NCBI GenBank assembly: GCA_902555985.1 | Contig: CACDUI010000002.1 | Coordinates: 62,001-126,000, forward strand | Direction: 5' to 3' | From: an uncultured Candidatus Actinomarina sp. | GTDB taxonomy: Bacteria; Actinomycetota; Acidimicrobiia; Actinomarinales; Actinomarinaceae | Length of the DNA: 64,000 bases | Part shown: one piece after another, positions 36,401 through 42,992 of the stretch | Position numbering within the stretch: the first letter of the stretch is position 1 | Layout: the number at the start of each line of letters is the position of its first letter | Program-made: the position numbers and the translations under genes | The notes under the pieces: generated by a model | What the model saw: the letters and a program-made list of their open reading frames with translations, nothing else | What the model was told of the DNA's origin: nothing | Database searches by the model: none

Positions 36401-36872
36401 TCAAAAATTTTTTCCTGTAGGTAAGTTAGGTAAACCGCATTCCTTAAAAGGGTATCAATATATAAACATTGAATATTTTTTTCGTAATTTTGATTTAAAA
36501 GAAACTACATTTCAAATTGAAGGAAAAGATATAGTTGTCGAAGATTTTAAAAAACATTTAAAAAATAGAAATTTAATTAAGTTTTATTCTTATGATTCTA
36601 TTGAGAAAGTAAGTGAATTAAGAAATAAAACAGTCAAAATTAATACGGAAGTATCAGATTTATTTATTAATGAAGAAAATTTGCCATGGCCTGGGTTTTT
36701 TATTGGTCATGAATTAAAAAAGAATATGTACAATTTACTAAGTTATGAAGTACTAAATAATATTTATTTTTGCAAAATTACTGGAATCGAAATGAATGTA
36801 CCATATAATAGTAATTTTTTTAATTTTGAAAATGGTGTTCTCTCTTTATTGGATAGTAGTTTAACTATTTAA
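36393..36872 (+). CDS. rimM: 16S rRNA processing protein RimM (divergent)
   Basis: 159 residues, slightly short. The N-terminal barrel signature FFPVGKLGKPHSLKGYQYI is recognisable; the PRC-barrel part (from about residue 95, LPWPGFFIGHELKKNMY) is divergent and carries no obvious IPF-type core, so the assignment rests on the N-terminus and position. Start is TTG 36393, overlapping khpA by 8 nt. It assists 30S maturation. It converges with the PuuD-like gene by 12 bp and is 6 kb from its usual partner trmD. Confidence 0.85.
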   Translation: MIDQKFFPVGKLGKPHSLKGYQYINIEYFFRNFDLKETTFQIEGKDIVVEDFKKHLKNRNLIKFYSYDSIEKVSELRNKTVKINTEVSDLFINEENLPWPGFFIGHELKKNMYNLLSYEVLNNIYFCKITGIEMNVPYNSNFFNFENGVLSLLDSSLTI

Positions 36873-37577
36873 CCATTCAAACAATTTAATGCTTACAGGA
36901 TCCTCAAGCATATTTTCAGGATGCCACTGAACTCCTAAAGCATCCCAGTCATTTGTAAGTTCAATCCCCTCAATAACACCGTCTGGAGATTTAGCCGTTA
37001 TTTTTAATTCATGACCAAGTTTGTTTATAGCTTGGTGATGAATTGAATTAACTTTTATTTCATTTTCCTGAATTATTGTATATAACTTTGAGTTGGTTTC
37101 TATATTTACATCATGAACATGCGAACGGGCATCTTTGAAAGGTTTTTCATGGTCAATTTGAGTAAAGCCATTATCTTTTAAATCTTGATAAAGTGAGCCA
37201 CCTTTATAAATATTAAGTAATTGATGTCCTCTACATATAGCAAGAGTTTTAACATTATTTTCTTCTGCAGACTTAAGCATCGCTAATTCAGTGCTATCTC
37301 TATAATCTGAAACTCTTATAGTTTTTTCTATTTTATCTTCTCCGTAAGTTGCTGGGTTGATGTCACCACCACCAGAAATTACAATTGCATCAAATTTTGA
37401 TATATCTACTAATTCTGAGTTTTCATGAGGTCCAAAAATTACAGCATTATTTCCAAAGTTATTACATGCTTTAACAAAATCATTATTTATAACTACACAT
37501 GGTATATTACCAGGCGCCATTTCCACATCTTTTAAGCCAGTAGATATTGCGATTAACTTACTCATGAATAAACACAC
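36861..37577 (-). CDS. class I glutamine amidotransferase-like hydrolase (gamma-glutamyl-GABA hydrolase, PuuD-like)
   Basis: 238 residues of the peptidase C26 family. The nucleophile elbow LAICRGHQLLNIYKG with Cys, SIHHQAINKLG and the His-Glu pair in GVQWHPENM complete the triad. PuuD-like enzymes release GABA from gamma-glutamyl-GABA during putrescine degradation, but closely related proteins act on other gamma-glutamyl amides. A gabT-like gene is at 12675-13937. It follows the RidA gene with a 20-nt overlap. Confidence 0.82.
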   Translation of the reverse strand: MCLFMSKLIAISTGLKDVEMAPGNIPCVVINNDFVKACNNFGNNAVIFGPHENSELVDISKFDAIVISGGGDINPATYGEDKIEKTIRVSDYRDSTELAMLKSAEENNVKTLAICRGHQLLNIYKGGSLYQDLKDNGFTQIDHEKPFKDARSHVHDVNIETNSKLYTIIQENEIKVNSIHHQAINKLGHELKITAKSPDGVIEGIELTNDWDALGVQWHPENMLEDPVSIKLFEWLNS

Positions 37578-37974
37578 ACTGCACTTCTACGCATACGTTC
37601 AAGGGTAAACTAGCCACACCAACAGCTGATCTCGTTGATTTTTCGCTAAAAAATTCAGATAATTTATCTGTAAATCCATTTAAAACTTTTGCATGATCAG
37701 TAAAGCCTTCATTGGCATTTACAAAACCGATTACATTAATAGGTTGCAGGTTTTCAATAGAGCCGTGTTTTCTAATTGTCGCGATCGTCAGTTCAGCACA
37801 TAATTTAGCAGCTGCGTAACCCTCATCAGTTGAAACATCAGCTGGTATTTTACCTATAAATTTTTTTTCTTCTGTAATAGGAACATGTCCCGATGTGTAG
37901 ACATATTTGCCAACTTTTTTATAAGTAACATAATTTCCAATTGCTTCTGGAGCTATTGGAAGACCTTTATCCAT
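37558..37974 (-). CDS. RidA (YjgF/YER057c/UK114) family protein
   Basis: 138 residues of the RidA fold. The stretch KKVGKYVYTSGHVPIT and the C-terminal AVGVASLPLNVCVEVQCVF are typical; the conserved arginine of the deaminase active site that usually follows LP (R105 in RidA) is not present as LPxxxxVE reads LPLNVCVEV, so it belongs to the longer, non-canonical subgroup. Canonical RidA destroys reactive enamines from PLP enzymes. It overlaps the gapA stop region by 8 nt and the PuuD-like gene by 20 nt. Confidence 0.8.
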   Translation of the reverse strand: MDKGLPIAPEAIGNYVTYKKVGKYVYTSGHVPITEEKKFIGKIPADVSTDEGYAAAKLCAELTIATIRKHGSIENLQPINVIGFVNANEGFTDHAKVLNGFTDKLSEFFSEKSTRSAVGVASLPLNVCVEVQCVFIHE

Positions 37975-38971
37975 TATTTAAAAGATTTCCAATAAGATCT
38001 ACAACCCTATTTGAATATCCCCACTCGTTGTCATACCAGCAAACAACTTTAATGTGATTCCCATCTAAAAGTTGAGTTGATGAAGCATCATAAATACTTG
38101 AATGTGGATTATTTAATATATCAGTTGATACAAGAGGAATTTCTGAATACTCTAAAATTCCTTTCAGTTCATTATCTGCAGCATGCTTTACAGCTTTATT
38201 TACATCATCAATTGAAACAGTTTTTTCTAATTCAACTACTAAATCAACAACACTTCCATCTGGGACTGGAACTCTCATAGCCATTCCATCTAATTTACCA
38301 TTTAAATCAGGTAAAACCATACCAACCGCTTTGGCTGCACCTGTTGAAGTAGGAATAATGTTTTGGGTAGCACTCCTGCCTCTTCTAAAGTCACTATGTG
38401 TTGTTTCAGCTAAAGCTTGGTCATTGGTGTAAGCATGTACCGTAGTCATAAGACCAGATTTTATACCAAAATTATCATCTAATACTTTAGCTATTGGCGC
38501 TAGACAATTTGTAGTACAGGATGCATTTGAAACAATTTTATCATCTGGTTTTAAGTCATCATCATTTACGCCTAAAACTATAGTTGCATCAATTTCATCT
38601 TTAGGTGGTACAGTAAGTAATACTTTTTTAGCACCAGCACTTAAATGTTTATTGAGAGATTCATTATCTCTGAAAATTCCTGTAGATTCAATTACAACAT
38701 CTATGTCCAATTCATTCCATGGAAGTTCAGCTGGGTCCTTTATAGAAGTTAGTTTAATTACTCTATCATCAACTAAAAGCTTATCTCCATCAATACTTAC
38801 ATCACTCTCTAGAATGCCCATTACAGAATCGTGTTTCAATAGATATGCAAGATTTTCATAATCACCAAGATCATTAATGGCAACAATATTGATATCAGAA
38901 TTGTTCTCGACAATAATTCTTAATATAGAACGTCCAATTCTACCAAAACCGTTTATTGCAACATTACCCAT
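37967..38971 (-). CDS. gapA: glyceraldehyde-3-phosphate dehydrogenase (catalytically complete copy)
   Basis: 334 residues. The NAD site AINGFGRIGRSILRI, the nucleophile Cys152 in SNASCTTNCLAP, the activating His179 in TTVHAYTNDQ and the final WYDNEWGYSNRVVDL match active type I GAPDH. It is immediately downstream of a second, degenerate GAPDH gene on the same strand (next gene starts one base away), so the pair is a tandem. Central glycolysis; it could use NAD (Asp33-like residue in AINDLG). Confidence 0.97.
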   Translation of the reverse strand: MGNVAINGFGRIGRSILRIIVENNSDINIVAINDLGDYENLAYLLKHDSVMGILESDVSIDGDKLLVDDRVIKLTSIKDPAELPWNELDIDVVIESTGIFRDNESLNKHLSAGAKKVLLTVPPKDEIDATIVLGVNDDDLKPDDKIVSNASCTTNCLAPIAKVLDDNFGIKSGLMTTVHAYTNDQALAETTHSDFRRGRSATQNIIPTSTGAAKAVGMVLPDLNGKLDGMAMRVPVPDGSVVDLVVELEKTVSIDDVNKAVKHAADNELKGILEYSEIPLVSTDILNNPHSSIYDASSTQLLDGNHIKVVCWYDNEWGYSNRVVDLIGNLLNNG

Positions 38972-39976
38972 TTATATCACTTGTCCAAGTTTTTTAATTG
39001 TATCAATAATCCTAGCTGCATAACCCCACCCGTTATCAAACCAGATAATGAGTTTTATTTTTTGATTATTTATACCCATTGTAGCTAATCCATCTACGAG
39101 ACCAGATAGCGAGCTTCTTACAACATCAGAGGAAACAATTGGATCATAAGTTATACCAATAATATTTTTTAAATCCGTATCAGACGCATTTGAAATTATT
39201 TTATTAATATCTTCAATACTGCATTCGTTTTTGATATCTACTGTAAGATCAACTGTGCTTCCATCAGGAATTGGCACAGTCATCGAAGAAGAAGCAATTT
39301 TATTTTTAATGAAAGGAAGAACATTTGCTACTACATCAGATGATTTTGTAATACTAGGTATAATATTTTCACCAGCTGCTCTGTTAAGTCTAAAACCCTC
39401 ACCTGCAACATCTGCTAATCGATTTGAATTTGAATAACCATGTATAGTTGTTAGGAATGCTCTTTCAACCCCAACTTCATTGTTCAAAACTTTAAGGATG
39501 GGAGCTACTGCATTTGCTGTATTAGAACCTAGGGAAAATACATTAGAGTTCAAATCTATACTCTCATCGTTTGCACCAGGCACATATATTTGTATATCTT
39601 CAAAATTTTCAGGTGTAGATGCAACAATAACTTTTTTGCAACCCTTGGATAAATGATTATCAACTTCATTTTTTGTTTTAGGTTTACCGGTAGCAAGAAC
39701 TACGATTTCAGTATTTAATTCAGCCCAATTTGCTTCATCACCATTTTTCCAAGAATTAAAAAGTATTTCTTTTCCGTTTACAATAATACCTGTTTCTGAC
39801 TCTTCAATGTTTGCATCAAGTTTTCCATATATTGAGTCGTACTTTAACAAATATATTAAATTTGCTTTATCAGCAGTATCTGAGATAGAGACAATATTTA
39901 TAGCTTCATCATTTAATGTTTGTCTAAATAGATCTCTACCTATTCTTCCAAATCCAACTAATGAAATATTTGTCAT
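38972..39976 (-). CDS. GAPDH paralogue lacking the catalytic cysteine
   Basis: 334 residues, the same length as gapA. The Rossmann motif LVGFGRIGRDLFRQ and the ending IWFDNGWGYAARIID show it is a GAPDH. The nucleophile position 152 reads SLGSNTANAVAP, with Asn for Cys (AAT codon) and Ala for the second Cys. His179 is kept in TTIHGYSNSN. The catalytic thiol cannot be replaced by Asn, so ordinary oxidation of glyceraldehyde-3-phosphate is unlikely. The start has AGGG three bases upstream (GTGAGGG). It stands upstream of gapA, suggesting a regulatory or subunit role. No frameshift is seen. Confidence 0.92.
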   Translation of the reverse strand: MTNISLVGFGRIGRDLFRQTLNDEAINIVSISDTADKANLIYLLKYDSIYGKLDANIEESETGIIVNGKEILFNSWKNGDEANWAELNTEIVVLATGKPKTKNEVDNHLSKGCKKVIVASTPENFEDIQIYVPGANDESIDLNSNVFSLGSNTANAVAPILKVLNNEVGVERAFLTTIHGYSNSNRLADVAGEGFRLNRAAGENIIPSITKSSDVVANVLPFIKNKIASSSMTVPIPDGSTVDLTVDIKNECSIEDINKIISNASDTDLKNIIGITYDPIVSSDVVRSSLSGLVDGLATMGINNQKIKLIIWFDNGWGYAARIIDTIKKLGQVI

Positions 39977-40045: not shown

Positions 40046-41167
40046 ATGACAGATTTAACAAGAAATATTAATAATTCAATCTTTGGATCTATCTCTACTG
40101 ATGAACTTCTAGCTAAAGCTTTTGAGAAAAAAATTGAATACTTCGGCAAAAATATAACATATAGCCCTAAAGTATTCATTCCATTAACAACTATGTGTAG
40201 AGACAATTGTGGATATTGTACTTTTGTAAAGTCACCTAAAGAAGGGGGAACTTATTTAAATCTAGAAGAAGTTCTTTCTATAGCAAAAGCTGGTGATGAT
40301 TCGGGATGTTATGAAGCCTTATTTACTTTAGGAGATAAACCAGAACTTAAATGGGATTATGCTTTGACTCAACTTCAGGAATTAGGCCATTCATCAACAC
40401 ATGAGTATTTAATTAGTTCAATGAAAAATGTAAATGAAAAATATAATTTATTTCCCCATGCAAATCCTGGTTTGATGACCCAACAAGAAATTAAGGAGTT
40501 AAAAGAATACTCTCCGTCTGGGGGAATTATGATTGAATCATTTTCTAAAAATATTTATGACAAGGGAAAAGCCCATTACAAAACAGGAACAAAATACATT
40601 GATTTAAGATTAGAAACTCTTAACAATGCACTTTTAGAAAAGTATCCTGTTACGACTGGACTACTCCTTGGTTTAACCTCAACAAAAGACGAAATTGTAA
40701 ATGATATTTCAAATTTAATTATTTATTTAAATGAGAACTTAGCAATACAAGAAGTAATACTGCAAAATTTCAGAGCTAAGAAAAATACTTTAATGAAAAA
40801 TAGTTCAGAAATAACAAATGATTTATTTTTAAGAATCATTGCAACTACTAGGATTTATGCACCTTCACATATTTCTATTCAAGTTCCTCCCAATCTTTCA
40901 CCAGACATAAATATATTTTTAAAAAGTGGAATTAATGATTTAGGTGGTATATCACCAATAACAATAGACTGGGTCAACCCTGATCACTTATGGCCAAATA
41001 TTAAAAATTTAAAATTAGATATTTCAAATACAGGGCAGAAACTTAAAAAGAGGCTTCCTGTTTACCCAGAATTCATAAAAAAAGAATGGTTAAGTAGTAA
41101 AATATTTGAGAAAGTTAATAATATTGTTGATACAGATGGATACCCAAGAGAAACAAATGAATCATAA
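40046..41167 (+). CDS. cofG: FO synthase subunit CofG (N-terminal half of FbiC)
   Basis: 373 residues. The radical-SAM cluster motif CRDNCGYC (Cys51, 55, 58) is in MCRDNCGYCTFVKSPKEGG, and the C-terminal part includes KKRLPVYPEFIKKEWL. FO synthase (CofG+CofH) makes the deazaflavin chromophore of F420 from tyrosine and a pyrimidine intermediate. In most Actinobacteria CofG and CofH are fused in FbiC; here the reading frame stops at 41167 and the second gene overlaps by 11 nt. There is no Shine-Dalgarno sequence near ATG 40046. Confidence 0.93.
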   Translation: MTDLTRNINNSIFGSISTDELLAKAFEKKIEYFGKNITYSPKVFIPLTTMCRDNCGYCTFVKSPKEGGTYLNLEEVLSIAKAGDDSGCYEALFTLGDKPELKWDYALTQLQELGHSSTHEYLISSMKNVNEKYNLFPHANPGLMTQQEIKELKEYSPSGGIMIESFSKNIYDKGKAHYKTGTKYIDLRLETLNNALLEKYPVTTGLLLGLTSTKDEIVNDISNLIIYLNENLAIQEVILQNFRAKKNTLMKNSSEITNDLFLRIIATTRIYAPSHISIQVPPNLSPDINIFLKSGINDLGGISPITIDWVNPDHLWPNIKNLKLDISNTGQKLKKRLPVYPEFIKKEWLSSKIFEKVNNIVDTDGYPRETNES

Positions 41168-42992
41168 TATCTCATTTCTAAGAATAAGACCGTGCGATAA
41201 CGATAATGAAATATATTTAAATTCTAGAAAAAAAGAGGGTACTTCGGGATTCTTATTAAAGGAAGAATTAAATCTTAATTTAAATCAAATACATAAAAAG
41301 GGTTTTCAAACTTTATCAAAAAATTTAGAAGATGATTCTGATGTATGGTTGATTAAAGATGATAATTGGAAAAATTTTAAAGAGATTAATCCAAAAAGAT
41401 TAATTTACTTATTCAAAAACAATAAGGAGAGTGCACTTGAAGTTATAGATAGATTAAGTCCTCATACAATATTGATATCAAAAACAACAGATTTAGATTT
41501 TATAAAATCAATTAATACAAAAGTTAACTTCATGACATCTGTATATGTAGACACAATTGAAGATGCAATTAAATTTATAAGTAGTGGTGTCTCAGACCTT
41601 CTACTAAGAGATTGGAGTTCTGAGCAAATTGAAGAACTGCAAGAAGTTGAAGGTTTAAATCTTTACGAAAGAACTCTTTTATCTCCAATATTTTCTGTTG
41701 ATGAGGCTAGAAATGAATTTGATAAAGAGAGATATTTCAGATATCTGAATACAAGAAATGTCCGAGGCTTTAGAAGAGAATATACAGAATGGTCACCGGG
41801 TAGTGGAAAAAATATCCCTAAATTAAACAATTTTGTATTTAATAATAAGAGCCAAATCTATCATTCTGATGTAGACGCAATATTAAAAAGTGTATTAGAT
41901 GGTTACCAAATATCGGATGAAGAACTCAAACTACTTTTTAATACAGCTGGCGAAAAAATAAATGATATAGCAAATGTTGCTAATCATTTAAATTTTATCA
42001 AAAATGGAAATAATGTAACTTACGTCATCAATCGAAATATAAATTATACAAATCAGTGTTATTACAAATGTGGTTTTTGTGGATTCTCTAAAGGTCCAAA
42101 TAGCTTGAATCTTAAAGAAAAACCATACTCTATAGACATTGAAGAAGTGGTAGCAAGGTCTTCTGAAGCATTTGAGATGGGTGCATCAGAGGTTTGTTTA
42201 CAGGGAGGAATACACCCAGATTACACTGGAGAATTCTATTTAAAAATGGTCAGAGATATAAAAGATGCAGTCCCTGACATGCACATACATGGCTTTACTC
42301 CTCTAGAAATATGGCAAGGTGCAGAAACTATCAATATGGGGATAGAGGAATATTTAAAACTACTTAAAACTGCTGGACTAAATACATTGCCTGGCACAGC
42401 TGCAGAGATACTTGATGACAGAGTAAGAAAATTTTTATGTCCAGATAAAATAACATCAGCTCAGTGGGCTTATGTTATGGAAGTTGCTCATAGTTTAGGA
42501 ATTAAATCTACAGCAACAATTATGTTTGGCCATATAGATGATATAGATTCTTGGGTAAATCATTTTTCATTAATTAGGAATATACAAAAAAATACTGGCG
42601 GATTTACTGAAGTAGTTCCTCTTCCTTTTGTCCATATGGGTTCGCCAATATATCTACAAGGCAAGAGTATGCCGGGTCCAACTTGGGATGAAGTAATTCT
42701 TGTACATTCTCTTGCTCGGATTTATTTTGCAAATGTTATCGACAACATTCAAGCTAGTTGGGTTAAGTTAGGACATGATGGTGCAGGTAAGCTTCTTCAT
42801 GCTGGAGTGAACGATCTTGGTGGAACCCTCATAAATGAAAACATAAGTAGGGCATCAGGTGCTGATCATGGTCAAGAGACAACACAAAATGAATTTATTC
42901 AAATAATTAAATCAAATAATAAAAATCCTGTTTTAAGAAATACGCTTTATACAGATTTAAAAGAAACAAAAAGTATTTTAGAAAATAGATGA
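41157..42992 (+). CDS. cofH: FO synthase subunit CofH with extra N-terminal domain
   Basis: 611 residues from ATG 41157 (a TTG at 41106 would add 17). The CofH domain starts near residue 260: TYVINRNINYTNQCYYKCGFC with the Cys-x3-Cys-x2-Cys of radical-SAM enzymes, then VPLPFVHMGSPIYLQ and NDLGGTLINENISRASG. Residues 1-215 are additional; I see an alpha/beta pattern (RLSPHTILISKTTDLDFI, VYVDTIEDAIKFISSGVSDLL) that could be half a TIM barrel. Domain identity unknown. It overlaps cofG by 11 nt and trmD by 4 nt. Confidence 0.92.
   Translation: MNHNISFLRIRPCDNDNEIYLNSRKKEGTSGFLLKEELNLNLNQIHKKGFQTLSKNLEDDSDVWLIKDDNWKNFKEINPKRLIYLFKNNKESALEVIDRLSPHTILISKTTDLDFIKSINTKVNFMTSVYVDTIEDAIKFISSGVSDLLLRDWSSEQIEELQEVEGLNLYERTLLSPIFSVDEARNEFDKERYFRYLNTRNVRGFRREYTEWSPGSGKNIPKLNNFVFNNKSQIYHSDVDAILKSVLDGYQISDEELKLLFNTAGEKINDIANVANHLNFIKNGNNVTYVINRNINYTNQCYYKCGFCGFSKGPNSLNLKEKPYSIDIEEVVARSSEAFEMGASEVCLQGGIHPDYTGEFYLKMVRDIKDAVPDMHIHGFTPLEIWQGAETINMGIEEYLKLLKTAGLNTLPGTAAEILDDRVRKFLCPDKITSAQWAYVMEVAHSLGIKSTATIMFGHIDDIDSWVNHFSLIRNIQKNTGGFTEVVPLPFVHMGSPIYLQGKSMPGPTWDEVILVHSLARIYFANVIDNIQASWVKLGHDGAGKLLHAGVNDLGGTLINENISRASGADHGQETTQNEFIQIIKSNNKNPVLRNTLYTDLKETKSILENR

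Follow-up and report, generated by a model that had tools for sequence, protein, structure and literature searches.

A tandem GAPDH paralogue without the catalytic cysteine in Candidatus Actinomarina and its relatives across phyla: a candidate non-catalytic subunit

Results

The window, a stretch of 64,000 nucleotides from an uncultured Candidatus Actinomarina sp. whose genome comprises about 1.03 Mb in 26 contigs, carries two genes of the glyceraldehyde-3-phosphate dehydrogenase (GAPDH) family in tandem on the minus strand. The first of them, the front paralogue (38972..39976, minus strand), encodes 334 aa in an open reading frame that begins with ATG and has no frameshift; its start codon follows a GAGGG ribosome-binding site by a few bases. 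The second (37967..38971, minus strand) is a canonical type I GAPDH gene, gap, which also encodes 334 aa, bears the active-site motif SNASCTTNC and is proposed here as the partner of the front gene. The intact length and the good ribosome-binding site had been recognized in a sequence-only reading of this DNA and were found again. That reading placed the paralogue one base from gap, but the actual distance is 0 bases, because the gap ATG directly follows the TAA of the paralogue.

On the other side of gap, a gene for a RidA/YjgF-like protein (37558..37974, minus strand) runs in the same direction, its start overlapping the gap end by 8 bases, and is itself overlapped by a gene for a peptidase C26/glutamine amidotransferase-like protein (36861..37577, minus strand). 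These overlaps, by which alone the last two genes are assigned, suggest an operon of four genes that includes the GAPDH pair. Upstream of the pair and divergent from it are CofG-like and CofH-like radical SAM genes of coenzyme F420 synthesis (40046-42992); at a locus of a sister family (L035), a CofH-bearing gene likewise adjoins the GAPDH pair. Besides the pair, the genome contained only one weak and distant match to the GAPDH family. This match (L003:1363-2409, minus strand, contig C4) encodes 348 aa with an ASCNTHN motif and is distant kin of archaeal-type (type II) GAPDH, scoring 78 bits where the cut-off is 185.

The Gp_dh_N and Gp_dh_C domains are present in both proteins, with Pfam scores above cut-off (86 and 137 bits) for the paralogue. 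Only gap, with 446.5 bits, passed the 367.2-bit cut-off of the GAPDH-I equivalog model TIGR01534; the paralogue scored 273.6 bits and attained no NCBIfam cut-off, and five front copies of other lineages were likewise under the TIGR01534 threshold. The two proteins align over 331 residues at 38% identity; the alignment has two gaps of one residue each, both of them away from the active site, which agrees with the gapless active-site alignment reported earlier.

GAPDH has a catalytic dyad of Cys149 and His176 and two sites, Ps and Pi, for the substrate phosphates (PMC9287727). We use the standard GAPDH numbering and give the paralogue's own numbering, with minus-strand positions in the window, in brackets. 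The motif reads SLGSNTANA in the paralogue against SNASCTTNC in gap, and both active-site cysteines are indeed gone in the alignment: Cys149 is replaced by Asn (Asn152, 39521..39523) and Cys153 by Ala (Ala156, 39509..39511). The alignment also revealed changes that had been overlooked, namely Arg231 of the substrate phosphate site to Thr (Thr233, 39278..39280), Arg195 of the phosphate site to Leu (Leu197, 39386..39388), Thr208 to Ile and Glu314 to Gly. His176 (His179, 39440..39442) and the NAD site (GxGRIG, Asp32, Asn313 and Tyr317) are kept, as the sequence-only reading had stated, and so are Arg194, Arg197 and the S-loop of the tetramer core. Because the thiol and the phosphate-site arginines are gone, the paralogue is not expected to carry out the phosphorylating oxidation of glyceraldehyde 3-phosphate by the known mechanism.

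Among 59 relatives surveyed, nearly every genome of the genus had the paralogue, and the three genomes without it (74-80% complete) also had no neighbouring gap. Among 296 Acidimicrobiia genomes, high-scoring tandem copies occurred in five families (f1, f2, f10, f27 and f29) and in one genus of a sixth (f20), and most other families had a single GAPDH. The Asn in place of the catalytic Cys is not due to chance, since all 76 aligned paralogues, from several Acidimicrobiia families and always in tandem, have Asn149. Residue 231 is Thr in 33 of 33 paralogues of the genus and Asn in 42 of 43 from other Acidimicrobiia. A dN/dS comparison across relatives had been set beforehand as a check; within Actinomarina, pairs with a dS of 0.05 to 1.2 gave a median of 0.092 in the paralogue and 0.048 in gap. 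This result indicates no relaxed selection, and the front copy evolves at about twice the rate of gap in the genus. Stop codons in relatives, or absence from them, were also looked for and were not found. The one exception among about 40 genus genomes was a metagenome-assembled genome (MAG) whose front gene is split into two frames by one additional base in an A-run (L085:4100-4200), which is possibly or even probably an assembly error.

A scan of genome contigs detected front copies directly upstream of a canonical gap in Acidobacteriota, Planctomycetota, Krumholzibacteria, Eisenbacteria and a few other MAGs. Relatives in other families and phyla thus rule out a paralogue private to one genome or genus. 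Tandem pairs were present in at least 19 of 149 genomes sampled from Acidobacteriota, 8 of 149 from Planctomycetota, 14 of 58 from the phylum of Krumholzibacteriia (L104), 9 of 47 from that of Eisenbacteria (L100) and 3 of 118 from the phylum of locus L118, all of these being lower bounds because reading was limited to the 25-30 best loci of each search. The genomes are mostly MAGs, and the recorded names may be wrong in single cases (for example L124). Many carriers of the pair had no further type I GAPDH. A DNA pattern of the Asn motif, judged by match counts only, also had scattered matches in the phylum beyond the class, and its reversed control matched about equally often.

Tree inference on 126 proteins (IQ-TREE, C20 by PMSF) united the front copies in one clade (SH-aLRT 99) and the standalone GAPDHs in another (98). 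The tandem partners made up the rest of the tree, and their subgroups mirrored those of the front copies. Because the front copies form a clade of their own, a recent duplication of the neighbouring gap is ruled out. The distance matrices of front copies and partners in 71 pairs were correlated with a Mantel r of 0.70, to which shared genome ancestry contributes, and none of 999 permutations was as high. A contrast case is L255, an unrelated and more recent tandem duplication whose two copies have retained Cys149 and Arg231 and fall among the standalone GAPDHs.

None of the 71 partners and 25 standalone copies of the set has lost Cys149. In the 71 front copies, residue 149 is Cys in 29, Asn in 20, Ser in 12, Ala in 3, Phe in 3, Val in 2, and Gly and Ile in 1 each. 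On a tree built leaving out the residue columns in question, this amounts to at least 11 changes of residue 149, and at least 8 changes between Cys and non-Cys. Arg231 is changed in 68 of the 71, mostly to Asn, Glu314 is Gly in 68, and most of the front copies with Cys149 lack Arg231. Because Arg231 is changed in nearly all front copies whereas Cys149 persists in 29, what the family has in common appears to be the lost phosphate site, with loss of the thiol as a recurrent consequence, an order that we infer. The ancestor of the family may have had catalytic activity, since those 29 copies retain the cysteine. An extreme loss of the active site was seen in L181-L185 (Acidobacteriota), which have Phe149 and Arg176 (SSVRAYGA) on a very long branch. 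In L180, L203, L204 and L207, the conserved WYDNEWGY near the nicotinamide has become WYEQGGGI/L, and because of this change coenzyme binding may be altered or lost in these front copies.

Within genomes, front and partner proteins agreed at 46% per position on average. The S-loop (178-201) sits at the core of the GAPDH tetramer. The 24-residue stretches in which the two proteins are most alike lie at 173 to 205 and cover this loop (0.67-0.69, against 0.46 overall), and the stretch 178-201 ranked 8th of 310. Consensus identity between front and canonical proteins was 87.5% in the S-loop, 36% in the Pi loop and 66% overall. Residue 188, in this loop, contacts the coenzyme of the adjacent subunit (PMC9287727).

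In 120 tandem pairs with start codons chosen by script, the distance from the front stop to the partner start was -4 bases in 54 (a 4-base overlap) and between -8 and +5 bases in 102. Because of this spacing, the data point to translational coupling of the two genes, which would favour stoichiometric synthesis. The genes flanking the pair vary between phyla, and no conserved third gene was found beside it across phyla; because the flanks vary, the pair itself is the conserved unit.

Discussion

We suggest that the front protein is probably a non-catalytic, NAD-binding GAPDH subunit in a mixed oligomer with the canonical subunit. The front gene would be translated together with the canonical gap, and the two products would assemble into a mixed oligomer, probably a tetramer. 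Because its coenzyme fold and the S-loop of the tetramer core are kept, the front subunit could bind NAD(H) and shape the coenzyme pockets of its neighbours. It would neither form the thioester nor bind substrate phosphate, so that turnover would be carried out by the canonical subunit only, and it may tune stability, cooperativity or the response to NAD(H). The basis of this proposal consists of the observed sequence losses, purifying selection, clade structure, strict tandem coupling and repeated loss of the cysteine, from which we infer NAD binding, the hetero-oligomer and a regulatory effect. The earlier idea of a maintained inactive subunit is strongly supported by the purifying selection, the near-universal tandem retention in the genus and the repeated independent loss of Cys149 across phyla. 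Its further suggestion, that mixed tetramers might regulate GAPDH, would accord with coupled translation, S-loop conservation and joint inheritance of the pair.

Several observations speak against the mixed oligomer. Operon coupling and co-inheritance can arise without a complex, 29 of the 71 front copies keep Cys149, and the front copy of Actinomarina evolves fast, with a stem branch of 1.42. Conservation of the S-loop would also fit a homotetramer of front subunits, and this leads to the main rival explanation, in which the front protein forms its own homo-oligomer, serves as a regulator that binds NAD(H) or moonlights (for example on RNA or another enzyme), and is linked to gap for co-expression only. 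The retained NAD fingerprint and the interface-like features would serve such a protein equally well. However, the gene order, nearly invariably abutting or overlapping in the 120 pairs, and inheritance together with a single distinct group of canonical partners suggest that the partner is the canonical protein itself, and we regard the separate homo-oligomer as unlikely.

The sequence-only reading had also offered a reaction that needs no thiol at residue 149. Such an enzyme would accord with the Cys still present in 29 of 71 relatives and with the largely retained His176, Asp32 and fold. Yet no single chemistry fits a position occupied by N, S, A, F, V, I or G; some lineages have K or R in place of His176, and acidic or bulky residues have taken over at the phosphate site. 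Given this variability of residue 149 and the loss of the phosphate site, we disfavour another reaction and consider it improbable. Still less probable is an assembly factor or stabilizer that binds the canonical subunit transiently: the front protein is made first and directly beside its client gene, but such a factor would not need a conserved NAD site. A decaying duplicate or an assembly artefact, to which the single frameshift and the twofold rate of evolution might point, has a negligible chance, as pseudogene decay is refuted by the purifying selection (dN/dS about 0.09), the intact gene in independent genomes throughout the genus and in other families, and the invariant Asn149.

The non-catalytic subunit that we favour can be compared with known systems. 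The paralogue resembles type I phosphorylating GAPDH (gapA, TIGR01534, EC 1.2.1.12) in its two Pfam domains, length, collinear sequence, His176, NAD fingerprint and S-loop, but it lacks Cys149, Cys153, Arg231 and Arg195 and scores under the equivalog cut-off. It also shares the GAPDH fold, and presumably a distinct role, with two other kinds of paralogue, erythrose-4-phosphate dehydrogenase (epd) and the ArsJ-associated GAPDH, both of which keep the catalytic cysteine. Identity with either was rejected, as the front copies score far under their cut-offs.

Bacterial GAPDH is usually regarded as a homotetramer. The closest functional precedent is the A2B2-GAPDH of plant plastids, a regulatory hetero-oligomer with GapB that is regulated via an added CP12-like tail (PMC4436894). 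Like the plastid enzyme, the proposed oligomer would contain a second, diverged GAPDH subunit for regulation. GapB has a CP12-like C-terminal tail with two cysteines, whereas the front paralogue, of different lineage and origin, is collinear with GAPDH over all of its 334 aa, lacks both a tail and terminal cysteines, and has lost the active site instead. In trypanosomes, the prozyme of AdoMetDC is a catalytically dead paralogue that binds and activates the active enzyme (PMC6221367). The front copy is alike in the loss of a catalytic residue under purifying selection and in the inheritance as a coupled pair with the active paralogue (gene order, overlap and co-inheritance), but enzyme and fold are different and the association is a candidate drawn from sequence. 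In the open-access literature that our search covered, we found no description of a cysteine-less or heteromeric bacterial GAPDH or of this gene family.

A wider claim would make the glycolytic GAPDH of several bacterial phyla an obligate hetero-oligomer of the canonical subunit and an ancient, upstream-encoded, NAD-sensing pseudo-subunit, whose active site was dismantled many times independently; to this we would give an even chance. If true, one of the most thoroughly studied enzymes would have an architecture not described so far, and a widespread two-subunit GAPDH with a dead NAD-binding partner would alter the view of how glycolytic flux is controlled in abundant, mostly uncultured bacteria. 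The streamlined Actinomarina of the ocean keep the front gene in a genome of about 1 Mb. The eight or more independent changes of the catalytic Cys provide a natural series for studying the evolution of pseudoenzyme subunits, in genes that annotation pipelines would label as plain GAPDH.
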